Source: Actinobacteria bacterium IMCC26256 (GTDB lineage: Bacteria; Actinomycetota; Acidimicrobiia; IMCC26256). Taken from it: 64,000 nucleotides of DNA. The position numbers and the translations under genes were made by a program. Below the pieces are notes generated by a model. That model made no database searches. It was not told the origin of the DNA and saw only the letters and a program-made list of their open reading frames with translations. Positions 4,679 through 62,500 of this stretch are shown in pieces; position 1 is the first letter of the stretch, and every line of letters begins with the position of its first letter. The stretch lies in contig CP011489.1 in assembly GCA_001023575.1 (NCBI GenBank), positions 1 through 64,000 on the forward strand. Direction: 5' to 3'.

Positions 4679-7031
<2,353 letters not shown>

Positions 7032-13397: not shown

Positions 13398-14954
13398 CTA
13401 AAAGGCAGACCTATCGAATGTGCCTTCGATGCAATTGGCGAAGACGGTAAAAGGTATTTGGCTTGCTGTGCTGTTTAGGACGCGTACTTCCCAGCTCTCG
13501 CCGTCTCCAGGCCCAGGGGTTGGATTCATGTAGGGCTGAGACGAGAGCACCGAGAGGAATTCATTCGGCAAGTAGAACCCACCGCCTATGGCAATTGAAC
13601 CAGCGGGGCAATCAGCTTTAGTGACTGTCACGGTGCTTCCATCAGCAAGGGCACCTGTATACGCGAGTACTACTCCTCCGGCGCCTGTCGAACCCGTAGA
13701 GCCTGTCGGTCCCGTCGGCCCTGTTACTCCAGTTATGCCTTGTGGTCCGGTTGGTCCTGCTGCACCGGTCGCACCGGTCGCACCGGTTGCACCAGTAGCG
13801 CCAGTAGTTCCGCTCTCACCTTGTGGTCCGGTTGGTCCTGCTGCTCCGGTGACTCCGGTGGTGCCGGTTGCACCTGTTGCCCCGGCCGTGCCGGTTATGC
13901 CTTGTGGTCCGGTTGGTCCTGCTGCTCCGGTGACTCCGGTTGTACCTGTTGCACCAGTCGCGCCGGTCGCGCCTGCGGTTCCGGTTATGCCTTGTGGTCC
14001 GGTTGTTCCTGCGGCTCCGGTGACTCCTGTTGCGCCTGTAGTTCCGGTTATGCCTTGTGGTCCGGTTGTTCCTGCGGCTCCGGTGACTCCTGTTGCGCCT
14101 GTAGTTCCGGTTATGCCTTGTGGTCCGGTTGGTCCTGCGGCTCCGGTGACTCCAGTCGCACCAGTCGTGCCTGTTACTCCGGTCGCTCCGGTTGCGCTTG
14201 CTGCTCCGTCATTCCCGGTTACGCCAGTGGCGCCTGTTGCTCCGGTCGCTCCGGTGTTGCCACTAATGCCTTGTGGTCCGGTTGGCCCTGCTGCTCCGGT
14301 CGATCCGGTCGATCCGGTCGCACCGGTTGCGCCGGTAGCGCCTGTAGTTCCGGTTATGCCTTGTGGTCCGGTTGGTCCTGCTGCTCCGGTGACGCCGGTG
14401 GCTCCGGTTGCACCTCGTGGCCCGGTCGCCCCAGTATCTCCAGAACCGCCGAGCGTGTAGTACCCAGCGAGGTCGGCGAGAATCTCGACGGGGGATTGAT
14501 TATTAAAGATATTCACAGCGCCGAATACGCCAAGTCGCACTGTGACCATGTTAGGCACCGGCCCTGGACCCACTTTGTTGAGGTTCGATGCGTTTGGTCT
14601 AGCCGTTCCTGCAGGGAAGACCGTTATGTATCCGGGTCCAGTCGCATTTACATAAGTGACATTTAGAACCGCAGCGACAGCATTGCTTGGAACAGTAATT
14701 GTGTCGTCTGAGACCCCGGCGATTACAACAGTGATCGTGTCGTTACTGCCAACGGGACCGACTGTTCCACCAAAGCCGGTTCGAGTATCAAGAATTCGCA
14801 CTGGGTCCATGGGTACGAAGACCGCTCCTGCCGGCACGCCGGCTAATCCTGATGCGGGCGTGACATCGTTGAGCCCCACTCCAGCAACAATGCCTGACGC
14901 GATTAGCAACATAGCCATGGCGGCTGCGGAGAAGCGAGCAAATGAAGTCTTCAT
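13398..14954 (-). CDS. Secreted collagen-like (Gly-X-Thr) repeat protein
   Basis: A 518-residue exported protein. It has a signal peptide (residues about 1-30, [20 protein letters not shown]) and an N-terminal beta-rich domain (about 40-165) with VRILDTRTG and the ending [11 protein letters not shown] long collagen-like tract of Gly-X-Y triplets follows (about 172-435), dominated by GAT, GVT, GPT and GPQ with periodic GPTGPQG. A C-terminal globular domain (about 440-518) closes it. Thr-rich collagen-like tracts are often O-glycosylated surface filaments. A paralogue with the same architecture lies at 33775-35361. The DNA of the tract is highly repetitive and likely to vary in length. Confidence 0.9.
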
Positions 14955-33774: not shown

Positions 33775-35361
<1,587 letters not shown>

Positions 35362-47057: not shown

Positions 47058-47140
47058 GGGCGAGTGGCGGAATGGCAGACGCGCTGGCTTCAGGTGCCAG
47101 TGTCCGTAAGGACGTGGGGGTTCAAGTCCCCCCTCGCCCA
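47058..47140 (+). tRNA. tRNA-Leu (anticodon CAG)
   Basis: A class II tRNA: acceptor GGGCGAG/CTCGCCC, anticodon stem CTGGC/GCCAG around TTCAGGT with CAG at 47091-47093, long variable arm TGTCCGTAAGGACG, and T-arm GGGGG-TTCAAGT-CCCCC. No encoded CCA. Its position beside fhaA matches leuT of mycobacteria, so it is ancestral; the accessory block begins just after it. Confidence 0.97.
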
Positions 47141-47174
47141 CCCTCACGTTCATCGTTTTACGAGGTATTACTGG

Positions 47175-47194
47175 AGTACTACTTTCGGTATACC
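47175..47194. promoter_or_regulatory. Palindromes upstream of the MazE-like gene
   Basis: AGTACT (47175-47180) and the perfect GGTATACC (47187-47194) lie 18-37 bases before the antitoxin start, a usual place for RHH antitoxin operators. Confidence 0.4.
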
Positions 47195-47211
47195 TTGAGT
47201 ATGCTGCTGGT

Positions 47212-47427
47212 ATGAAAATCAGCATGAGCCTCCCTGATGAAGATGTGACGTTCCTCGACGCTTATGTAGAGGCCAAGGGGCTCGCTTCGCGCTCTGCCGC
47301 CCTGCACAAAGCGGTTCGACTCCTGCGCGCCAGCGGCCTTGGCCCGGCGTACGAGGCTGCCTGGTTGGAGTGGAGCGATGAGAACGAAGTTGTGTGGGGC
47401 GCCGCCTCAAAAGATGGGCTCGGCTAA
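47212..47427 (+). CDS. mazE: MazE-like RHH antitoxin
   Basis: A 71-residue antitoxin with an N-terminal RHH domain, ISMSLPDEDVTFLDAYVEAKG and SRSAALHKAVRLLR, and an acidic C-terminal tail that would occupy the toxin cleft. Its stop is directly followed by the toxin's GTG. It resembles the MazE9-type antitoxins of mycobacteria and probably autoregulates through the palindromes upstream. Confidence 0.88.
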   Translation: MKISMSLPDEDVTFLDAYVEAKGLASRSAALHKAVRLLRASGLGPAYEAAWLEWSDENEVVWGAASKDGLG

Positions 47428-47775
47428 GTGCACCGCGGCGAAATCTATTTGGTCAACCTCGAACCCGCTAACAGCGGAGAAGCTAACAAGCAGCGCCCCG
47501 CGATCGTCGTGAGCAATGACGGTGCGAATAGCTCTGCAGCTAGAAGTGGCCATGGGGTGATCACCGTTGTTCCAGTGACGTCGAATGTCGCTCGTATATA
47601 TCCCTTCCAAGTCTTGTTGCCCGCTAACGCGACTGGCCTGGACCTCGACTCAAAAGCGCAGGCTGAGCAGGTACGTTCGATCTCGGTCGACCGCCTCGGA
47701 GCTTCTATTGGTGAGGTTCCACATGCGTTGATGGAGGAACTCGACGAAGCGCTTCGACTTCACCTCGCGCTCTGA
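47428..47775 (+). CDS. mazF: MazF endoribonuclease toxin (MazF9-like)
   Basis: A 115-residue MazF. HRGEIYLVNLEPANSGEANKQRP contains the conserved RGE and RP elements, VITVVPVTSNVARIYPFQVLL is the conserved catalytic strand (Thr/Ser), and KAQAEQVRSISVDRLG follows. By memory it is closest to the mycobacterial MazF9 (mt1) type. These cleave RNA at short specific sites. GTG start abuts the antitoxin stop. Confidence 0.93.
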   Translation: MHRGEIYLVNLEPANSGEANKQRPAIVVSNDGANSSAARSGHGVITVVPVTSNVARIYPFQVLLPANATGLDLDSKAQAEQVRSISVDRLGASIGEVPHALMEELDEALRLHLAL

Positions 47776-47996
47776 TCGCTATCTAAACCGCTGATGAGTA
47801 CGAGCTAGGCCAAACAGTGAGTAATTTCACGAATGTGACCTGGAAGAACACAATCTGCAGCGGTGGCGGTAACTCAGATACATACACTCCAAAAACCTGC
47901 CTCGGCCACTAGAGCACAGAGTTAAGTTCGATCGCTGCAGCTCCAAAGTGCTTGTGGTGGAGACTGTCGGCGGCTAACTGTGCAAAGCTGAACCGC

Positions 47997-50900
47997 ATGC
48001 CGGGCGAACTTCCAGAGGGACTATACGAAGCACTAGTAACCCGTGGCTTAGAGAAGAAGCTCGCCGAGATAGATCCGAGAGTGATTGACAAGCGCCTCGT
48101 TCATCGCGCAGAGGTCCCAGATCGTTTCGCATTACATCTAGCTAGAGCGATTGAGAAATCACTCAGATCTGTTCCGGAGACGGACCGCGTCTCGGTCGGG
48201 CTCGAAGTTTTGGAGTCGGTGCTCGATGTGCTCGCAGGTTTATCTGCGAGCGACGTCATTGACCTAGAGCGCCTTACTGCGGAACCATCAATGCTTAGAT
48301 CAGTCACGAGCATTCTTCCGGACGGATCACCGCGCCCGATTGTTTCGCCGCTGATCTCGCTTCTAGATACGACACTTCTAACAAACGCTCCAAAAGAGCC
48401 TCGTGTGGGGCACCAGATACACGCCGAGATTGGATCCGCCAACAACATAGATGTCTTGATGGCGTTTGTTCGTCGTTCTGGTATCGCTCCTATGAGAGCT
48501 GCGTTAGAGGCCCACTGTGAACGAGGGGGGCGTCTGCGGCTCCTCACTACGACGTACACAAACTCAACAGAGCGTGAAGCACTCGATGTACTAATTGCGC
48601 TTGGCGCAGAGGTTCGTGTTTCCTACGACACTTCCACCACACGCCTTCACGCTAAATCATGGTTGTTCCATCGACTGAGCGGATTCTCCACCGCATATAT
48701 TGGTTCTTCGAACCTCACACACTCAGCGCAAGTAGCGGGCCTGGAGTGGAATGTCAGGGTCTCGGGAGCGCGCAACCCAGATGTGATAGCCAAAATGGCT
48801 GCAGTCTTTGACTCCTACTGGGAAACGCCCGATTTTGCACCCTACGACCCAGCCGAGTTTGATGAGAGAACGGAACGCTTATCAAATGCAGGGCCTTTCA
48901 TTTTCCTGAGCCCGTTGCATGTTTCCCCATTTCCATTCCAGGAGAGACTCCTTGAGCAGATTGCGCTTGCTCGTGAAGAAGGCCACCACCGAAATCTTTT
49001 GGTTGCAGCAACTGGTACCGGCAAAACGGTAATGGCTGCGCTTGATTACTCGCGTCTTGCAGAGGTGCTGCCGCGTGCTCGGCTGTTGTTCATCGCTCAC
49101 CGTCAGGAAATCCTCGACCAAAGTCAGGCAACCTTTCGCCACGTTCTGAGAGACCCCGCGTTTGGTGAGCAGTGGATCGGTGGAGTTAGGCCGAAGAAAT
49201 TTGAGCATGTATTTGCCTCCATTCAGACGCTAAATCGTATTGATCTAGAGGACCTTGCAGCCGATCACTTTGATGTCGTGATTATTGATGAATTCCACCA
49301 CGCGGCGGCTTCTTCGTACCAGGCATTGATGGAGCGTGTTGAGCCAGTCGAGTTGCTCGGGCTAACTGCAACCCCAGAGCGCACAGACGGCAAGCCCATT
49401 CTCCACTGGTTCGATGATCGAATTGCAGCGGAGCTACGACTATGGGATGCAATTGATCAGCAACTGCTAACACCCTTTGTATATTTCGGTATCAGCGATG
49501 GGCTCGATCTATCTGTGGTTCCATGGAAGAGAGGAATCGGATACGACAAGCAGGGCCTTACGAATCTCTATACGGCTAACGACATGTGGGCCCAGCATGT
49601 GGTTGGTGAGTTCGCTAAACGTGTTGACGATGTGTCGACAGTTAGGGCCTTAGGGTTTTGTGTCAGCGTGGACCACGCCGTCTTTATGGCGGAAGTTTTT
49701 AACAAGGCTGGTATCCCTGCCGTCGCTGTATCTGCTTCGACGCCATCGGAGGACCGAAGATCTGCACTTCTTGATCTCAGCGCGGGTCGAATCCGCATTG
49801 TCTTCTCGGTTGATCTCTTCAACGAAGGTGTCGATGTTCCGGCGGTTGATGCGCTCCTAATGCTTCGGGCTACAGATAGCCCGACACTTTTCCTCCAACA
49901 ATTAGGCCGGGGCCTGCGCAAGAGCTCAGATAAATCTCTCTGCACGGTCTTGGACTTTGTCGGTAATCACCGCCGTGAGTTTCGATTTGATCGAATATTG
50001 CGAGCACTACTTGGAGGCTCAAGGAAGGATGTGGAGAGACAGGTCGAGCAGGGATTTCCATTCTTGCCCGCTGGCTGCCACATGGAGCTCGATGCCGTAG
50101 CTACAGAGATCGTCCTGAGAAACATCCGAGCAGCAGTGCCGACGCGTTGGAATGATAAGGCAGCAGAACTTCAAGCTTTAGGGCAAGGCAAACCCGACAT
50201 CTCGCTCGCTCAGTTCATGGAGCTGACAGGCCTCGAACTTGAGGATATATATGCGGCTAACAAGGGTTGGTCTGATCTTCGCGAGGCAGCAGGACTCCCC
50301 GTACAGCCGCCCGGCCCACACGAAGAGATCTTGCGTCGTGCTGTCGGACGCCTCCTGCACGTTGACGATCGACTTCGCTTGAATGGGTATCGGATGGTTG
50401 CGGCTGGCTTGCCAGTTAATTCCGTTGAGGGTGTACCCAACGGGCAGAGAGATGGTCTTGCGAAGATGCTCTTAGCCCAACTGGTTGAGCAGGTGGCGCT
50501 AGGGGACCTCGCTAGGAGCGCAACCCTTGAGGAGGCCGAGCGGCTTCTCGCCGATCACCCACAGGTATGTAGTGAGATTGTTGAGTTGCTCGATGTTCTT
50601 TCGGGGAACGTTTCGCATCTTGCAACGGTGTTGAGCACTAACCCGACTGTGCCATTGAGGGTCCATGCTCGCTACACCAGGCTTGAGATTCTCTCGGCGT
50701 TTGACCATGGCGAGGCGGTGCGGCCATCAACATGGAGGGAGGGTGTTCGGTGGCTGCCTGAAGAGAAGACAGATATTTTTGTGATTACGTTGAATAAAGC
50801 AGATGGCAATTTCTCACCGACCACCTCATATAAGGATTACGCAATTAGTCCGAGCATTTTTCATTGGGAGAGTCAGGCCGCAACTCGGGCAAGCAGTCCT

Positions 50901-51107
50901 ACGGGAAAGCGATACCAGGAGCACGCCGCAAATGGATCATCGGTCGTGCTATTCGCGCGAATGAAACAGAGCGATCGAGCATTTTGGTGCCTCGGACCAG
51001 CGACGTACATCTCGCACGAAAACGAGGCACCGATGGCAATCAAGTGGAGACTGGAAGTTCCCTTGCCAGGCGATATCTACACGGAGTTCGCCGCCGCTGT
51101 TGTGTAG
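47997..51107 (+). CDS. PLD-domain SF2 helicase with DUF3427-type C-terminus
   Basis: A 1036-residue multidomain protein. The phospholipase-D-like domain (about 140-285) has RLHAKSWLF and YIGSSNLTHSA. The SF2 helicase core has Walker A AATGTGKT (about residues 334-341), DEFH box IIDEFHHA, motif III GLTATPERTDG and motif VI QQLGRGLRKS. The C-terminal 300 residues are of the DUF3427 kind, ending in a beta domain. Proteins of this design are common in defence and repair islands; the catalytic status of the PLD part is unclear because the HKD motif is incomplete. GTG/ATG starts upstream (47952) are possible. Stands alone after the MazEF pair. Confidence 0.88.
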   Translation: MPGELPEGLYEALVTRGLEKKLAEIDPRVIDKRLVHRAEVPDRFALHLARAIEKSLRSVPETDRVSVGLEVLESVLDVLAGLSASDVIDLERLTAEPSMLRSVTSILPDGSPRPIVSPLISLLDTTLLTNAPKEPRVGHQIHAEIGSANNIDVLMAFVRRSGIAPMRAALEAHCERGGRLRLLTTTYTNSTEREALDVLIALGAEVRVSYDTSTTRLHAKSWLFHRLSGFSTAYIGSSNLTHSAQVAGLEWNVRVSGARNPDVIAKMAAVFDSYWETPDFAPYDPAEFDERTERLSNAGPFIFLSPLHVSPFPFQERLLEQIALAREEGHHRNLLVAATGTGKTVMAALDYSRLAEVLPRARLLFIAHRQEILDQSQATFRHVLRDPAFGEQWIGGVRPKKFEHVFASIQTLNRIDLEDLAADHFDVVIIDEFHHAAASSYQALMERVEPVELLGLTATPERTDGKPILHWFDDRIAAELRLWDAIDQQLLTPFVYFGISDGLDLSVVPWKRGIGYDKQGLTNLYTANDMWAQHVVGEFAKRVDDVSTVRALGFCVSVDHAVFMAEVFNKAGIPAVAVSASTPSEDRRSALLDLSAGRIRIVFSVDLFNEGVDVPAVDALLMLRATDSPTLFLQQLGRGLRKSSDKSLCTVLDFVGNHRREFRFDRILRALLGGSRKDVERQVEQGFPFLPAGCHMELDAVATEIVLRNIRAAVPTRWNDKAAELQALGQGKPDISLAQFMELTGLELEDIYAANKGWSDLREAAGLPVQPPGPHEEILRRAVGRLLHVDDRLRLNGYRMVAAGLPVNSVEGVPNGQRDGLAKMLLAQLVEQVALGDLARSATLEEAERLLADHPQVCSEIVELLDVLSGNVSHLATVLSTNPTVPLRVHARYTRLEILSAFDHGEAVRPSTWREGVRWLPEEKTDIFVITLNKADGNFSPTTSYKDYAISPSIFHWESQAATRASSPTGKRYQEHAANGSSVVLFARMKQSDRAFWCLGPATYISHENEAPMAIKWRLEVPLPGDIYTEFAAAVV

Positions 51108-51610: not shown

Positions 51611-51972
51611 CAGACTGCCTCTCGAATCTCATTGATGTATGCAACCGGAAACCCGAATGCTTTAGTGCGGGGTTGAGAGTGTTTTACCAATAACCAAGCA
51701 TCTCGTTTTAGGTGATGGCGATCCTTAGGCTTCAAGGTTCAAACCGTGCCGACCAGCCGCGTTTCGCGTAATCGCTCCTCAGCGATTGAAACGCATCAGA
51801 TCCTCTGGTTTTGATGTCCCAGCCCTGCACCATCTTGCGAACCCTGGTGCTGCGTCCTAAATACCTGCCACGTCTATTTGTCCCACCCTAGTGGCTTAAT
51901 AGGTACATGAAGAGCAGGACTAGTGCCATCAGGGCTACTAGCGGTTCTTCACTATTGACAGGAGTAATTCCA
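51611..51972. other. Intergenic region upstream of the dual-specificity phosphatase
   Basis: 362 bp without a gene. It holds TGTCCCAGCC (51815-51824), the 75-bp copy A of a duplicated element (51877-51951) with TGTCCCACCC and a hairpin, and the phosphatase ribosome-binding site (CAGGAGT). Confidence 0.8.
51877..51951 (+). repeat. Duplicated leader element, copy A
   Basis: Aligned by hand with 55647-55722, it shows eight substitutions and one single-base indel over 76 columns. It contains TGTCCCACCC (51879-51888), GTGGCTTAATA, and a hairpin of CTAGTGCC (51920-51927) with GGC-T-ACTAG (51933-51941) around a five-base loop and one bulged T. It begins 96 bases upstream of the phosphatase start. 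A spurious ATG frame enters it, but the second copy has a stop there, so it is not coding. Confidence 0.9.
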
Positions 51973-52614
51973 ATGAGCACATCGAATCCTTCCCCCACCA
52001 TCTCCGACTCCCGAACGCCAGCAGAGTGGTGGCGCACTCTCTGCGAAGTTGTTATGCCCAAGCGTAAAGGTGCACGCATTGTCGTGAGTGGTGATCTTCA
52101 CCACGAGCATGACCAAGCATTAAGGCAGCTTCGCGAGTGGCAGGCCTATGGGATTACCCACATTCTTGATGTCCGCGGCGAACACTCAGACATCAAGTTT
52201 GTTGCCAAGCATGCACCCGAGATCACTTATATCGAGTGTGGCACGCATGACAATGGCGGACGCCAGGATGCTGCATGGTTTGACAGCGCGCTCGAGAAAG
52301 TGGGGGATGCACTCTTCGATAAGAATTCGGCAATTCTCATAAATTGCCATATGGGGGTGTCAAGAGCGCCGAGTTGCTCGGTGCGACTTCTTCTCGCCCA
52401 AGGCTACGACCTGCTTCCCGTACTTGATGCCATCCGTAAAGCACGCCCCATCGCAGCGATCCTCTACGCAGAGGATGCAGTGGATCACTGGCTTGCTAAC
52501 GAGAGTGTCGAGGGCAGACGCGATGCACGTCGCACGGTTCGGGCTTGGCATGACGATAACCCTGTAGATATAGGTTGGATCATTAGCCGAATACGCCGAG
52601 TCGAGTACAACTGA
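51973..52614 (+). CDS. Dual-specificity phosphatase-like protein
   Basis: A 213-residue protein with the PTP/DSP signature INCHMGVSRAPS (Cys-x5-Arg complete) preceded by an Asp-containing loop CGTHDNGGRQDAAWF that could hold the general acid. The N-terminal part ARIVVSGDLHHEHDQALRQLREWQAYGITHILDVRGE resembles cyclin-dependent-like DSPs. It may dephosphorylate protein, RNA 5' ends or small molecules. ATG 51973 with CAGGAGT upstream is the start. Downstream TPR gene after 66 bases. Confidence 0.87.
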   Translation: MSTSNPSPTISDSRTPAEWWRTLCEVVMPKRKGARIVVSGDLHHEHDQALRQLREWQAYGITHILDVRGEHSDIKFVAKHAPEITYIECGTHDNGGRQDAAWFDSALEKVGDALFDKNSAILINCHMGVSRAPSCSVRLLLAQGYDLLPVLDAIRKARPIAAILYAEDAVDHWLANESVEGRRDARRTVRAWHDDNPVDIGWIISRIRRVEYN

Positions 52615-52680
52615 TGAGGAACGACTCATCATTCACTCGCGTAACGGATCATCTTCTACGCACTTCGAAGGGAATCTGAA

Positions 52681-53436
52681 ATGGCTAACGTTCGGCTACA
52701 ACCTTCTCTTCCTGGGCATTTTCAACGGGCTCAGGATGAGCTCCTCAGCGGAGATCTAAAGAAAGCGATTAGCAGTTTTAAGGGTCTTATTCGAGACTGG
52801 ACTATTCACCAAGGTGTAGATGGTGAATCGACTCAAGCTTGTCGCTACTGCCTAGGCGAAGCCCTTATAAAAGACGAGCAGTGGAATGAAGCAGAGTTAG
52901 TGCTGGCGGCGTTGCTGGTCGACCGCGTTCGACTTCTTGGTCCAGAGGATCTGCTCTCTATCAACACTAGGAGGCTCTACGCGGTTGCAGCAGCGCATGG
53001 CGGGCCATCGAAATTCGTCTCTACATCAGTCGACTCTGCCAGCGCCTCTGACACAACTCAGTCAATTGATATTCACCTTATCCAGCTCAATCGATCGAGG
53101 TTTATAGCTGTCGGCACCGACATCGCTGACCAACGAGTTGTGGAGTTATGCGGAACGAAAGCATTACGGGTTCGAGCGACTAACCCGGCGGAGAAGATTC
53201 GCGAAGCTCTAAGCGACGAAAACTTTTTCATTAGAGAGGTAAGCGTCTACAAGACCCCCGATGTAACTGAGAGCAGTCCCATTGAGCAAACACAAGATGA
53301 TGCGGAGAGTTCCTTGAGTACACCGGACCAAATTCCACAAGCAAACTGGTGGCGAAGATTTCTTGCTGCACGACTTAGGGCCTCAGCGGTGAGAATTCGA
53401 TCTCGACGTGATCGTAAGGCTCAGAAGCGCTCCTAG
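52681..53436 (+). CDS. TPR-type protein (shorter paralogue)
   Basis: A 251-residue protein with an N-terminal TPR-like region. ALIKDEQWNEAELVLAALL and DRVRLLGPEDLLSINTRRL align with the corresponding repeat in the TPR protein at 57461 (AAETELAALLIDRESVLGPDDEQTL). The middle is unique, and the C-terminus is strongly basic (RLRASAVRIRSRRDRKAQKRS), suggesting nucleic-acid or membrane binding. Lies between the phosphatase and an EEP-fold gene, all on the plus strand. Confidence 0.75.
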   Translation: MANVRLQPSLPGHFQRAQDELLSGDLKKAISSFKGLIRDWTIHQGVDGESTQACRYCLGEALIKDEQWNEAELVLAALLVDRVRLLGPEDLLSINTRRLYAVAAAHGGPSKFVSTSVDSASASDTTQSIDIHLIQLNRSRFIAVGTDIADQRVVELCGTKALRVRATNPAEKIREALSDENFFIREVSVYKTPDVTESSPIEQTQDDAESSLSTPDQIPQANWWRRFLAARLRASAVRIRSRRDRKAQKRS

Positions 53437-53470
53437 CCAGTCCATTACCAGGAAAAATAAAGGGGATCTC

Positions 53471-54340
53471 ATGACATCACTACGCTTCGTTACCTGGAAC
53501 TTTAATTTATTTAACCCAGATAGATTCGAAGACAAGGTCGCATTGCTAGAGCGGCTTCAACCAGATGTGGTGGCTCTGCAGGAGATCACGAGTGATGTTG
53601 CAGCCCAACTTCTGCAGAGATTTTTAGGATCAACGTTGATACAGGGTTTAGCAAACAGTGGATGGAAGGCTCCAAAGGCAAATGGTGCCGCATTGCTTCT
53701 GCGCGAAGGTATTCAAATTCTAGATTCATCCATTCCAGCGTTGATCGGTCCGGAGAGTTCGCTAGGTGCAGACGACGCAGTCCCGGAGCAGACATTCGTT
53801 GCTGCGAAAATAGCAATAGGAGGAACTGAGTTCTTCGTGGCCTCTGCCCACCCGATGAATGCAGCAGGAAACGGCGCCGAGCGTGAGCGAAAGGTTTCTC
53901 GCAAATTAAAGACCTATGCCGCAATTGAGCAATGGGTTGGCGTCAACAAACCGGTAGTTCTTGGCATGGATGCAAATGCATGGATTGATACTGGATCCTC
54001 TCAGTCTGGTTCACCATTCGATGCGCCAGAGTTCTATGGCGATCAGCAGGAGATCATGCATTTCTTCCTCGACGGCCCAGTTCGGCACGGAATGGTTGAT
54101 GCATTTCGATCATGGCTCAACGCTCATCCTGAAGAACTTGCCGCAATCAAGTTGCGTAGACCAAAAGGACCGCTCGCAACGACCTATGTCAGGGGCGGTA
54201 ATTATCCAGTAGCAGACCGCTTCGATGTGGTGATGATTTCAGAGGGCTTGACCGTCACGTCAATTGAGCATGGATATGAGGACTCGCTCGCTGCGGGTTC
54301 CGATCACGGTTATGTCTGCTGCGACCTCGAACTCGGTTAA
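53471..54340 (+). CDS. Endonuclease/exonuclease/phosphatase family protein
   Basis: A 289-residue EEP-fold protein. FVTWNFNLFN, the metal Glu region VVALQEITSD, SAHPMNAAGN, LGMDANAWIDTG (usually GDFN) and the C-terminal GSDHGYVCCDLEL are seen. The core motifs are complete, so a metal-dependent nuclease or phosphodiesterase is likely. ATG 53471 with AAGGGGATCTC upstream is chosen over 53408, which overlaps the TPR gene. Confidence 0.83.
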   Translation: MTSLRFVTWNFNLFNPDRFEDKVALLERLQPDVVALQEITSDVAAQLLQRFLGSTLIQGLANSGWKAPKANGAALLLREGIQILDSSIPALIGPESSLGADDAVPEQTFVAAKIAIGGTEFFVASAHPMNAAGNGAERERKVSRKLKTYAAIEQWVGVNKPVVLGMDANAWIDTGSSQSGSPFDAPEFYGDQQEIMHFFLDGPVRHGMVDAFRSWLNAHPEELAAIKLRRPKGPLATTYVRGGNYPVADRFDVVMISEGLTVTSIEHGYEDSLAAGSDHGYVCCDLELG

Positions 54341-54389
54341 CGCTCGCAACTCAGAACTGATGCACCAGCAAACGACGGAGTAACAACCA

Positions 54390-55418
54390 CTATGTGGATT
54401 CGTCGTAGAAGGTCTTCCAGTCGATGTCAGGGATCGCCTCGCCGGTCACCGACCGTGTTAGTAATGCCTGAGCTCGCCCCACGCTCTCTAGAGCGTTGGC
54501 GCACTGAGTCCTGATAGCGCTCGATGCACCAAGGACTTGGTTTGCGCCTTCCTCAATAGTGGCGAGATGAGCCTCAAGTTTGAAGATATTGTTGAGATCG
54601 CGTATCAGACGCTTCGCAATCATTGCGATTCGATCAGCCTCGTATTTTCCTTCGGATGAGAGTATTGCTAGCGCACGCGCGACAGAGTAAGCAGCAAAGA
54701 GATTTGTCCAGTCGCCTTCTTCTCGATTTACGAGCACAATAAACCCTGGAATCTCTGGCTGGAAGAGGATGCCATCCACATTCTTGCGGATTGAAGTGTG
54801 CGCGATGCTCGTATCCGAAATAAAAATTGTTACATCTGCCTCGCGGTTAATGAGCGCAGTGAGATTCTGACCGTAGGCAGTCTTCTCTGACTTCTTCGTT
54901 ACGTTCTTTGACTCGTCAAGAATTGTTGGGTCGCCAAAATCGACGCTCTTGTCCCACTTCGATTCAATTACCACTCTGCAAATGTCCGAGCCATTTATTG
55001 CTGCGACAAGGTCCCCTACTTTGCGCCTCGGAATAACGCCGATCGTCTCTCCGGTAAGCGAGACCGTGTCGCTCCATTCACGCTCGTCAATAAAGTCTTG
55101 TAGAACTGATGCGATGTCGGCCTCAACAATCGCACCCTTCCCTGCAGATTTCTCTTTCAAGGTGCGAATCGTATAGAGCGCCTTCAGTTCCTCTAAGCGA
55201 AGATCCAACTCGACTTCGGCTGACGCTAGGAATGCGCCGATTCGCTCTACGGATAGTGCGTAGCAACCAAGAGTTAAAGCGCGCTCGAAAGTCGCGTCGT
55301 ACTCCGTCGCTCTTTTTCCGTTAAAGAATTCGTAAATGAACTCATTCTCGAGAATGAAGTCGCCGGTGAATTCAACGCGCTTTGGGTCTGATCCCAACTT
55401 TATGAAGTTCTTAGCCAT
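54390..55418 (-). CDS. Hypothetical protein with possible PD-(D/E)XK nuclease motif
   Basis: A 342-residue protein. VVIESKWDKSV (E-x-K) preceded by an Asp-containing strand (AAINGSDICR) looks like a restriction-endonuclease-like active site. The C-terminal 120 residues are helical. ATG 55418 with GGCAGGGG upstream is chosen. Family not recognised; nuclease activity is a guess from the motif. It faces the other genes of the array, with its promoter in the region that also drives the zinc-ribbon gene. Confidence 0.55.
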   Translation of the reverse strand: MAKNFIKLGSDPKRVEFTGDFILENEFIYEFFNGKRATEYDATFERALTLGCYALSVERIGAFLASAEVELDLRLEELKALYTIRTLKEKSAGKGAIVEADIASVLQDFIDEREWSDTVSLTGETIGVIPRRKVGDLVAAINGSDICRVVIESKWDKSVDFGDPTILDESKNVTKKSEKTAYGQNLTALINREADVTIFISDTSIAHTSIRKNVDGILFQPEIPGFIVLVNREEGDWTNLFAAYSVARALAILSSEGKYEADRIAMIAKRLIRDLNNIFKLEAHLATIEEGANQVLGASSAIRTQCANALESVGRAQALLTRSVTGEAIPDIDWKTFYDEST

Positions 55419-55766
55419 GCCCCTGCCACCTTTGTTTGGATGATCTCTGAGCTCCAATTGCTAACAGACCCACGTGCTCCCGTTCCACTTTCCGGAAAGG
55501 CCCTAGGGGATGCGGACCGTCAGAGCTTGGCCATTAAGCCGATTGGGCACCGTAGCAAAATTGGTTGCATAACTGAATCGGAGAAAACCGGCAGGCATGC
55601 AATGATGGATTCAAACCCAAGAAGTTGAACCCTCTGATAGTGCTTGTTTGTCCCACCCCTGTGGCTTAATAGATACATGAAGGGCAGGGATTAGTGCCAT
55701 TGGGGCTACTGGCGGTTCTTCATTCTGAATGTGCAATCAAGTGCACAATTTATGAAAAGGGGAATT
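55419..55766. other. Intergenic region with copy B of the leader element
   Basis: About 348 bp between divergent genes. The left third would carry the promoter of the minus-strand gene. The right half contains copy B of the duplicated element (55647-55722) and the ribosome-binding site AAAAGGGGAATT of the zinc-ribbon gene. Confidence 0.75.
55647..55722 (+). repeat. Duplicated leader element, copy B
   Basis: Matches 51877-51951. It contains TGTCCCACCC (55649-55658) and the same hairpin, here TTAGTGCC (about 55691-55698 region) with GGC-T-ACTGG. The two outer base pairs C-G and T-A of copy A become T-G and T-G wobbles, so pairing is kept in RNA. It begins 120 bases upstream of the zinc-ribbon gene. 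Confidence 0.9.
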
Positions 55767-56156
55767 ATGAGTCAGCCTGAAATCTGTAGTGGATGTGGGA
55801 ATTTCCTAGACTGCGCCGATTACGAGTGCGCTACATGCGGTCAGGTTGTGGAGGGTTCGGAGTCAGTGACGTTCGACGATGGGCGGACCGTAACCACTTA
55901 TCGAGATGTGCGTACCTCAATCGCCTACCCAAGCGGTTTAAGGGTAACTACTTTTAGAGCAGGCCGTACGCGGTCACGACTGCCCGATGGAACAATGTAT
56001 TTCGTCTATGAGGGTGGTCATGTCTTTATCAAATTCCCTGATGGACGAGAAGTGCGAATTGATGCCGACGGCGGAAGTTGGATGAAATTCCCAGATGGCC
56101 ATATGGTTGGAATGAATGCTGACGGAACCGCAAAAATTATTGAACCACTGTGGTAA
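55767..56156 (+). CDS. Zinc-ribbon protein with PDG beta-repeats
   Basis: A 129-residue protein. An N-terminal CxxC...CxxC zinc ribbon (EICSGCGNF, YECATCGQ) is followed by short beta-hairpin repeats with LPDGTMYF, FPDGREVRI, FPDGHMVG and NADGTA. The repeats resemble Tcp10_C-type PDG repeats. The zinc ribbon may dock a partner while the repeats act as a beta-scaffold. ATG 55767 with AAAAGGGGAATT upstream; copy B of the leader is in front. Confidence 0.75.
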   Translation: MSQPEICSGCGNFLDCADYECATCGQVVEGSESVTFDDGRTVTTYRDVRTSIAYPSGLRVTTFRAGRTRSRLPDGTMYFVYEGGHVFIKFPDGREVRIDADGGSWMKFPDGHMVGMNADGTAKIIEPLW

Positions 56157-57212: not shown

Positions 57213-57460
57213 GCTCCTGCCCCATTTCTGGTACTGCGTTATCCCACCCGATATGCATACCTCGCGTCCGCAGCATCCCAAATGGAAGAGCCTCGGAGCA
57301 ATGAGGAGAGTAATCCAGAACGGCTTACTTTGGAAATGGGCAAAAGAGTGGGTAGACGTAGTTCTTGAGCGCGAACCCCCATGGTGCCCCTCTGATAAAT
57401 GTCCCACTCTGGCGGTACTCTCTTTAAGTATTGAATATCCGCTAGTAGGGGGTAGGGCAG

Positions 57461-58627
57461 GTGCAGGAAGACAATTTTGACTCAACAGTCCTTGATGAGA
57501 TGTGTTTCGAGGCTCAGCGTGCGCAAGAAGAAGGCAATATCGAGATAGCGATAGATCTATTCTCACGACTCACCGAGATCTGGGGCGAGGTTGAGGGCGC
57601 CACTGGCCCCAAGACAATGGTGATGCGCGGATTTCTTGGCAGGGCTCTCACCGATGGTCGCAGATATGAGGCTGCAGAGACAGAGCTTGCGGCACTACTC
57701 ATCGATCGAGAGAGCGTTCTCGGGCCTGATGATGAGCAGACTCTTGTAACGCGCGGCAATCTTGCGAGGGCTATTGCATTCGGAGGGCGACCAGAAGAGG
57801 GCATTCACATCACCCGCATGCTCCTCGCAGATCGGGAGCGAATCTATGGAGCAGACGACCCGAGAACTATGAATGCTCGCGGTCAAATCGCTGAGTTCTA
57901 CGCAGATGCAGGGAGCGACGCGAGGGCGGCTGCGCTATTTGGAGAACTCGTCGCTGATCGGGAGAGAGTGCTCGGATCAACTCATCGGGATACTGAGCGA
58001 ACGCGCCAAAACTTTATAATTGCCTCTGCTAAGTCAAACCCGAATGCCGAGACAATCGGCGCGCTGCGCGAATTATTCGATCAGGAGGTCGCCTATGAGG
58101 GGCTGAGCAATCCGGGCGTAATAAATACCTATGCAATACTCGCCAACCTGACCGCCTTTTCTTTGGGGGAGCCACTAGAAGGGCTCGGAATGCTGACAGT
58201 TGTAGTTGCAGAGAGAACAAAACTCTTTGGGCCCGGTAGTCCCCTAACCCTGGCTTCTCGTAGAGGTCGAGCGCGTTGTCTGATTTTAATCGGTCAGTTT
58301 GATGATGCAGTCAGCGAGTTAGAGGATTCGTGTGTGTATGCCGACGAGGAGAGCATCGCTAACGATCTTGAGGGATTGGCCCTACGCATGGATTTGGTCT
58401 GGGCTCGCATGGCAAGACTTGAGGCTTATATTGAAGAGAGCGTCGGGGAGGAATTCGATTATGGTGAAGACGATTGGGCGACCGTGGAGTTCCTTCAAGC
58501 ACGGAGCGACTGGATTTCTCTAGAGGAAGACTCGCGCTGGTTGGAGCCTGAGCACGGACTGCGTCGTGAGACCCTACGTATGAAAGAAGAGTATGAATTC
58601 AATGAGGAGAGCGAAGAGTCACCGTAG
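57461..58627 (+). CDS. TPR-repeat protein (longer paralogue)
   Basis: A 388-residue protein with at least four TPR units of the kinesin-light-chain/NB-ARC type, recognised by repeated DRE...LG.DD..T (LLIDRESVLGPDDEQTL, LLADRERIYGADDPRTM, LVADRERVLGSTHRDT, VVAERTKLFGPGSPLTL). The C-terminus is very acidic. A protein-interaction scaffold; the short paralogue at 52681 shares one unit. GTG 57461 with GGGGGTAGGG upstream. A TGTCCCACTC motif is at 57400-57409, 61 bases upstream. Confidence 0.85.
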   Translation: MQEDNFDSTVLDEMCFEAQRAQEEGNIEIAIDLFSRLTEIWGEVEGATGPKTMVMRGFLGRALTDGRRYEAAETELAALLIDRESVLGPDDEQTLVTRGNLARAIAFGGRPEEGIHITRMLLADRERIYGADDPRTMNARGQIAEFYADAGSDARAAALFGELVADRERVLGSTHRDTERTRQNFIIASAKSNPNAETIGALRELFDQEVAYEGLSNPGVINTYAILANLTAFSLGEPLEGLGMLTVVVAERTKLFGPGSPLTLASRRGRARCLILIGQFDDAVSELEDSCVYADEESIANDLEGLALRMDLVWARMARLEAYIEESVGEEFDYGEDDWATVEFLQARSDWISLEEDSRWLEPEHGLRRETLRMKEEYEFNEESEESP

Positions 58628-58937
58628 TTTCGGCTGCTCTCGGAGCTCGCTTGGCCTCTCTTCTTGCAGTCCTCTTAGCTAATACAACTGCGGAGGGAGA
58701 GCTTATGGTTTTTCTACGAGTCTTTTGCTGAACCCGATCGGTGCAGCTTTCTCGAAGAGCATTGAGAGCAACATCTCTGTCCCCCATCAGCGCCATTTGG
58801 CGTCCCCTCCGACGGTGGTCACCATTACAAGAGGGTGGGACACCTAAATCTCACTCGCCTGACCTCGATGATGTCCCACCCACTTCTTACTCTTTATTCC
58901 AGTGAGCAGAGGGGCTGCTCTCGGCGAGGGGACCGCA
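58628..58937. other. Intergenic region with inverted repeat before the PemK-like gene
   Basis: 310 bp. The left part carries a weak minus-strand frame (to about 58796) with little protein character, which I do not call. The right part has the perfect inverted repeat at 58833-58881 and the PemK-like gene's ribosome-binding site. Confidence 0.6.
58833..58881. repeat. Perfect 10-bp inverted repeat (GGGTGGGACA ... TGTCCCACCC)
   Basis: GGGTGGGACA (58833-58842) is the exact complement of TGTCCCACCC (58872-58881), separated by 29 bases. The right arm is the same decamer seen upstream of the phosphatase and zinc-ribbon genes. It could be a binding site for a dimeric regulator or a structured RNA. 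Confidence 0.85.
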
Positions 58938-60449: not shown

Positions 60450-60551
60450 TTCTGCTTAATCCTTCGATCGGTAAATCTGCATAGCGTTGAATCTGAATAT
60501 TTAGCCACGCTAACTGCACTTGTCCAGAACAGCATAGGACAGACTACTGAA

Positions 60552-60614
60552 GTGAAGCCCGAACTCATTATTGACTGCGACCCTGGCCATGACGATGCAG
60601 TGACTTCGTCGTAG
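60552..60614 (+). pseudogene. 5' fragment of a nucleoside hydrolase gene
   Basis: The 20 codons beginning GTG-AAG-CCC translate to VKPELIIDCDPGHDDAV followed by TSS and a stop. The start of the gene at 61580 reads MKPDLIIDCDPGHDDAM. The two DNA segments are similar over about 50 bases, then diverge abruptly. This is a broken copy, probably left by duplication and deletion. Confidence 0.75.
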
Positions 60615-61462: not shown

Positions 61463-61579
61463 CAAAATCTCTTTTCTAAAAACTAGGGAGCCTCGGGTGT
61501 GGGGATTCAGTCGAACACACATTCGCCCATGAGTCAACCCCCAAAAATGGCCCTAGACCCAATGGGTAAGACTGTGGTC

Positions 61580-62500
61580 ATGAAGCCTGACTTGATTATT
61601 GACTGCGACCCAGGGCATGACGATGCGATGGCGATCTGCGTTGGAGCGAATCGAGGCCACTTAATAGGGGTTACAACTGTCGCCGGCAATGTCTCTCTCG
61701 AGCACACAACCAACAACGCACTAGCTGTTGTGCAGATGCTCGGTATCGATATAGAGGTTCACTCCGGTGCTGCCGGGCCGCTCAATGGTGACGATGGGCG
61801 CTTTGCATCGTTTGTTCATGGAGAGAATGGACTTATAGGAGCGAGTCTCCCAGAAGTTACGAGACAGGTTGCCTCAACCGACGCTGCGGATTACATCCTC
61901 TCTGCAACTATCGAGCATCCTGGTGCGTGGATCGTGGCGATTGGGCCATTGACCAATATTGCGACTGCGCTCGAGAGGCACCCAGCGCTAATCGATCGAA
62001 TCTCTGGCATCTCAATCATGGGTGGTGGAACGTACGGAAACATCAGTGCAGCGGCAGAGTTCAATATTCACTTTGACCCAGAGGCCGCCGAGATTGTCTT
62101 TAAGAGCGGCGCGCGCATTATTCAGTGTGGTTTAGATGTCACACACCAGCTATTAGTTACCGACGCGCTCGTCGATGCGACGGCACAGATCGGAAATGGC
62201 TTTGGGCGCTTTAGCAATGGATTGCTCGCTGGTTACCTCGAGAACATTCGTCTTCTAACCGGCGAGAGCCTTGAGGCTGTCCTCTACGATCCCTGCGCAG
62301 TGCTTGCGATTACTGACCCAGAGATATTCGAGTTTGCCGATCGTTACGTGTCGGTCGAGACACGAGGTGAGCACACGCGCGGAATGACTCTTGTGGATCA
62401 AAGGTCATGGATGCGCGGTGGGCCGGTTAAGTGGGCTGAGACGATCGATGCGGAGCGCGCCACAGAGATAATTCTCTCCGCTATTACTGCTGCTCCTTAA
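61580..62500 (+). CDS. Inosine-uridine-type nucleoside hydrolase
   Basis: A 306-residue enzyme with the Asp cluster DCDPGHDDAM at residues about 8-17 that binds calcium and activates water, LTNIATALERHP, GGGTYGNISAAAEFNIHFDPEAAEIVF and a catalytic His/Asp region. It cleaves ribonucleosides to base and ribose. ATG 61580 is chosen; the frame is open from 61499, but the broken copy at 60552 starts at the same codon. The ribokinase-like gene converges on its end, fitting nucleoside salvage. Confidence 0.93.
   Translation: MKPDLIIDCDPGHDDAMAICVGANRGHLIGVTTVAGNVSLEHTTNNALAVVQMLGIDIEVHSGAAGPLNGDDGRFASFVHGENGLIGASLPEVTRQVASTDAADYILSATIEHPGAWIVAIGPLTNIATALERHPALIDRISGISIMGGGTYGNISAAAEFNIHFDPEAAEIVFKSGARIIQCGLDVTHQLLVTDALVDATAQIGNGFGRFSNGLLAGYLENIRLLTGESLEAVLYDPCAVLAITDPEIFEFADRYVSVETRGEHTRGMTLVDQRSWMRGGPVKWAETIDAERATEIILSAITAAP

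Follow-up and report, generated by a model that had tools for sequence, protein, structure and literature searches.

A duplicated 76-bp element with a putative PafBC-like DNA-damage promoter lies upstream of two unrelated genes in Actinobacteria bacterium IMCC26256

A 76-bp repeat ahead of two unrelated genes

The window analysed here, 64,000 nucleotides comprising positions 1 to 64,000 of contig CP011489.1 (assembly GCA_001023575.1), contains two copies of a 76-bp element, each upstream of a gene that faces the same way:

51877..51951, + strand: copy A of the 76-bp element (88% identity with copy B, E 3e-22)
51973..52614, + strand: gene behind copy A, dual-specificity phosphatase (Pfam DSPc, E 5.5e-9)
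52681..53436, + strand: TPR-like protein (weak TPR match; resembles the TPR gene at 57461)
53471..54340, + strand: endonuclease/exonuclease/phosphatase-family protein (Pfam Exo_endo_phos, E 1.4e-6)
55647..55722, + strand: copy B of the 76-bp element (88% identity with copy A, E 3e-22)
55767..56156, + strand: gene behind copy B, Tcp10_C-repeat protein (Pfam Tcp10_C, E 2.3e-11)

The copies are identical at 67 of 76 alignment columns, with eight substitutions and one 1-nt indel (BLAST E 3.2e-22), confirming the original prediction of about nine differences; among 100 shuffled windows, no match does better than an E value of about 1. The edges of the repeat are sharp, with TTTGTC at the start and TTCTTCA at the end, and the flanks of the two copies are unrelated. 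So too are the genes behind them, as had been claimed, given that Pfam identifies a dual-specificity phosphatase in one case and a Tcp10_C-repeat protein in the other. The phosphatase gene has a ribosome-binding site, AGGAG, at 51960, and the TPR-like and nuclease-family genes that follow it probably belong to the same operon.

Genome-wide work consisted of pattern searches and model searches. The 2.46-Mb genome has no copy besides A and B, and at E 1e-3 none occurs in the 394 other genomes of the class set (n = 395 including this one). A mobile repeat of the MITE or REP type is ruled out because the genome holds two copies, not many. A viral or phage origin is also rejected: viral contigs contain no exact match to the promoter described below, and there is no phage DNA match. 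The phosphatase and the Tcp10_C protein have no relatives in the viral contigs.

The element adjoins what looks like a defence island (47058-51107), where a tRNA-Leu(CAG) comes first, then a possible antitoxin frame, then a MazF/PemK-like gene (47428-47775), and then the gene for a large protein of the PLD-helicase-DUF3427 type that matches PADLOC mREase_IV (E 1.5e-250). Contig L044 (CAMDSG010000194.1) has the same order of genes, with proteins 91-96% identical, and matches the same-genus genome G003 (C194); its label, Bifidobacterium breve, is probably wrong. Elsewhere in the window, 9-nt-period repeat arrays, possibly collagen-like coding repeats, lie at two distant places (13612-14460 and 33959-34830), a tandem array of about five copies of the 16-nt unit AGCGCAGATGGTGTTG lies at 4684-4763, and two neighbouring paralogous starts of the MKPELIIDCDPGHDDA type (60534-60598 and 61562-61626) probably belong to tandem nucleoside hydrolases.

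The left 24 nt and the PafBC-like promoter signal

The left part of each copy carries promoter-like features, and related motifs occur further downstream in the window:

51879..51900, + strand: PafBC-like promoter of copy A, with the TGTCCCACCC -26 half and TGTC 12 nt from a degenerate -10, CTTAAT
51907..51909, + strand: ATG of copy A, 6 nt past the -10; transcription is predicted to start here, and the ATG may serve as a leaderless start codon
55649..55670, + strand: PafBC-like promoter of copy B (14-nt identity with 13E12 promoters)
55677..55694, + strand: equivalent ATG of copy B, opening a 5-codon frame, MKGRD* (read from the sequence)
57400..57421, + strand: full motif TGTCCCACTCTGGCGG-TACTCT, 5' of the TPR gene at 57461-58627 (exact match to TGTCNCAC-N8-TANNNT)
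58832-58842, minus strand: TGTCCCACCC half, 5' of a PemK-like gene
58872..58893, + strand: full motif TGTCCCACCCACTTCT-TACTCT, 5' of the same PemK-like gene (exact match to TGTCNCAC-N8-TANNNT)

The two TGTCCCACCC boxes within 58832-58893 stand back to back, 40 bp apart. In the leader that follows the 57400 promoter, 57432-57448 contains a 17-nt inverted match (88%; CCGCTAGTAG) to the copy A hairpin described below, which may be due to chance.

This type of promoter is already known; Gamulin 2004 reportedly treats such RecA-NDp promoters of Actinobacteria. The published consensus of RecA-independent DNA-damage promoters is tTGTCRgtg-8nt-TannnT (PMC5656591), and PafBC recognises its promoter at -26 together with the housekeeping polymerase (PMC11804915). 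Like these promoters, copies A and B have a TGTC box (51879-51882 and 55649-55652) at about -26, 12 nt from the -10. In contrast to them, both copies read C and then CAC after TGTC rather than R and then gtg, both have CTTAAT where TANNNT is expected (TANNNT is present at this distance at 57400 and 58872), and both share a 45-nt leader. Given the degenerate -10, strict membership in the mycobacterial consensus fails; because the copies depart from both the TANNNT rule and the mycobacterial R/gtg letters, we describe them as working like PafBC promoters and not as proven members. Scored against the genome's own signal, TGTCNCACCC-N6-TANNNT, each copy reaches 10 of 12, with TANNNT unmatched, and the 14-nt TGTCCCACCCCTGT of copy B recurs letter for letter in 13E12 gene promoters at 761770 and 2204019.

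The position of the ATG bears on where transcription starts. In 23 of 42 motif sites outside the 13E12 family, the hexamer is followed after exactly 6 or 7 nt by an ATG or GTG, and the ATG 6 nt past CTTAAT in both A and B falls at this modal leaderless position. This agreement supports the -10 spacing in the two copies and suggests that the transcript probably starts at the base of the hairpin.

Across its own genome, the pattern TGTCNCAC-N8-TANNNT has 39 matches, including the two inside the window at 57400 and 58872, compared with one for the reversed pattern. About 32 of the 39 come from one multiplied family, which counts against the breadth of the promoter reading. We take this to be the 13E12/DUF222 HNH family, having read the genes with TGTCCCACCCCTGT sites, where the sequence continues TTTTATACT-CGAACATATGTTCG. 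In these genes, the SOS box (CGAACATATGTTCG) overlaps the start codon beside a TGTCCCACCC-type motif; indeed, nearly all of the approximately 32 family-like genes (L014-L061; e.g. at 109033, 464425, and 2439141) carry this composite of PafBC-like motif and SOS box. From their translations, the remaining matches presumably precede genes for a RecC-like protein, a ComM-like protein, an endonuclease/exonuclease/phosphatase-family protein, a dGTPase-like HD protein, a second HD-domain protein, trigger factor, and a DUF2510 protein. The genome's own recA has a weak match alone (TGTCACAGGCTTCACATAACTT), about 170 nt 5' of the start codon, which counts against the reading. Adjacent genes encode homologues of PafB (E 2.6e-13) and PafC (E 6.4e-29), as compared with the solved PafBC, and a second WYL pair is also encoded.

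In the class as a whole, the box reads TGTC[AC]CACCC, differing from TGTCRgtg. The tighter form, TGTCMCACCC-N6-TANNNT, is found in 282 of 395 class genomes, with control matches in only 4. As is known for RecA-NDp/PafBC promoters, the motif in these relatives precedes recA and other DNA-repair genes (rmuC, SbcD-type, Lhr): Pfam assigns the genes behind sampled matches to RecA (three loci), RmuC (three), SbcD C-terminal, DnaB, Lhr, and class II ribonucleotide reductase, while other sampled matches lie ahead of genes that look defence-related, such as one with a TIR domain and one for a CRISPR Cas protein, or ahead of unrelated genes.

The motif also recurs upstream of phosphatase homologues, where a site scoring at least 10/12 occurs in 14 of about 30 distinct upstream regions and the reversed motif in 0, never scoring above 9. 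For the in-genus phosphatase paralogue, TGTCCCACCCCTATGG / TGTCCCACCCCTATGGGAGTATTACTCATCACC or a near form is kept in three species. This recurrence 5' of orthologues lends independent support to the promoter reading. Two loci in one genome (L073 and L104, genome G211) encode phosphatase homologues with a full TGTCACACCC motif, followed by an upstream frame of 16 codons, leaderless and almost the same at both loci (MTKIEEKPKVLAHGLS / MTTTEEKPKVLAHGLS), and then a CCCAGGAGG...CCTCCTGGG inverted repeat; frame and repeat together are a possible attenuation leader.

The original prediction offered a shared promoter, a structured leader RNA, or a recombination site. The shared promoter is the option that these comparisons support well, for the left 24 nt, whose most plausible reading is a PafBC/RecA-NDp-like DNA-damage promoter. 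A structured leader RNA is possible, and the recombination site is unsupported.

The right 45 nt: a predicted hairpin and its competing explanations

The remainder of the element can fold as RNA:

51908..51951, + strand: predicted hairpin of copy A, 8 + 8 bp (MFE -19.7, z -4.0)
55678..55722, + strand: predicted hairpin of copy B with three G-U replacements (MFE -14.7, z -1.6)
55731..55746, + strand: additional stem, GTGCA/TGCAC, confined to the leader of copy B; belongs to an alternative fold that covers the ribosome-binding site

The stem quoted in the original prediction exists, and its extent was incomplete. It missed an outer 8-bp stem, TGAAGAGC/GTTCTTCA, which, added to the inner 8 bp and a 5-nt loop, makes the whole 45 nt from the ATG a single imperfect hairpin of 16 pairs. 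A single base separates the hairpin from the predicted 5' end, and its last pair coincides with the end of the duplicated block. The two reported changes from C-G and T-A to T-G hold, and pairing also survives a third change in the stem, from A-U to G-U; all three of the three stem substitutions are one-sided and none two-sided in this comparison of two sequences. By z-score, copy A is unusually stable, and copy B does not stand out. With downstream sequence included, the copy A hairpin is predicted to stay folded. For the full copy B leader, an alternative fold is predicted to be more stable (-35.2 vs -28.5 kcal/mol): at equilibrium the hairpin is lost, its 3' arm being paired with the ribosome-binding site. 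During transcription, the copy B hairpin would form first.

Several candidate roles are rejected. The element is not coding, since the frame is broken in copy B, where the predicted stop codon is present, and four of the five changes in the copy A frame would be non-synonymous. It is not an intrinsic terminator or attenuator, as there is no U-run and the stem is followed by CTATTGACAGG in A and TTCTGAATGTG in B. Nor is the hairpin general to the promoter class, with none comparable in about 20 other motif leaders. A covariance-model search, as had been proposed, returned only the two copies and one marginal match (E 0.036) in a distant genome, and there is no Rfam match up to E 1.

How, then, might the right 45 nt have come to be duplicated? 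They may be a passenger, copied with the promoter as the first codons of a leaderless frame, the hairpin being incidental; we hold this to be possible, at odds well below even. The copy A ATG opens a frame shared with the downstream phosphatase, leaderless starts dominate this promoter class here, a 1-nt insertion terminates the frame in copy B, and only two copies exist. Like leaderless mRNAs in mycobacteria, in which a 5'-terminal ATG or GTG is sufficient for translation (PMC4633059), both copies have ATG as the predicted first transcript base; unlike them, there is a ribosome-binding site and a second start downstream, and the copy B frame has only five codons. The good ribosome-binding site before the internal start at 51973, the largely non-synonymous changes, and the unusually stable copy A hairpin argue against a passenger. 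That same stability, the fit of the hairpin to the predicted transcript end and block end, and the retention of all pairs as G-U favour a structured leader RNA instead, selected as an mRNA stabiliser or, in copy B, as one of two switch states, the other of which masks the ribosome-binding site by pairing it with the 3' arm. There is a precedent in the 5'-terminal stem-loops that stabilise E. coli mRNAs (Emory et al, 1992, as cited in PMC3997798): the stem here likewise sits 1 nt in from the predicted 5' terminus, although, in contrast to the ompA type, it is known from prediction alone and the full copy B leader refolds. Yet random five-transition mutants of copy A keep all pairs in 16% of cases and fold as well as copy B in 33%, two-sided compensation is absent, and neither the class genomes, Rfam, nor the other motif leaders contain a counterpart. 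Because so many random mutants keep the pairs and the copy B leader refolds, we leave a structured-RNA function at possible, and consider selection for it as the functional unit rather unlikely.

The dyad could also act as DNA, as an operator for a repressor of both promoters. It sits just 3' of the start, and 13E12 promoters carry an SOS box at the corresponding place; A and B, however, have no SOS-box match, and the changes weaken the DNA symmetry (G-T) yet keep RNA pairing, making an operator quite unlikely. We regard as very improbable that the direct repeats mark a site at which recombination or insertion introduced the 3.77-kb segment. They do flank it within an island-like stretch after the tRNA-Leu, and the congener contig L044 carries the segment and breaks near both its ends, stopping short of both leaders. 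Against this, no integrase is predicted within about 5 kb, the repeat has no further copies, the repeats are 12% diverged, and each bears promoter features facing a gene.

A probable shared damage signal for two gene sets

Our preferred explanation, to which we assign a probability of roughly 0.75, is that the element is a duplicated PafBC-like damage promoter with its transcript start, placing two unrelated genes under one signal. We infer from the features above that the promoter is used, starts at the predicted site, and is induced by damage. Upon DNA damage, PafB would read the TGTCCCACCC box at about -26, and the housekeeping RNA polymerase would then start about 7 nt past the weak -10. 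The transcript would begin at or near the ATG, with the 45-nt hairpin at its 5' end and a normal ribosome-binding site behind. With the promoter duplicated ahead of both, the phosphatase/TPR/nuclease operon and the Tcp10_C-repeat gene would respond to one and the same signal. The role of the hairpin, on weak inference, would most likely be to protect the mRNA 5' end or to tune translation.

A bolder version, which we think unlikely, combines these parts into a portable two-part cassette: a PafBC-like damage promoter and a transcript whose initial AUG lies within a hairpin at its 5' end. This AUG would recruit ribosomes and the hairpin would protect the mRNA; in copy B, competition between the hairpin and the fold that hides the ribosome-binding site would add post-transcriptional damage control to two unrelated genes.

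The hairpin would matter only if it proved to act as RNA. The duplicated damage promoter would place two sets of genes that otherwise defy annotation, the operon of phosphatase, TPR and nuclease genes and the gene for the Tcp10_C-repeat protein, in a DNA-damage regulon of a little-studied actinobacterial class, and two neighbours probably belong to the same regulon. The lineage-specific signature TGTC[AC]CACCC-N6-TANNNT can be used to map this damage regulon in hundreds of genomes.
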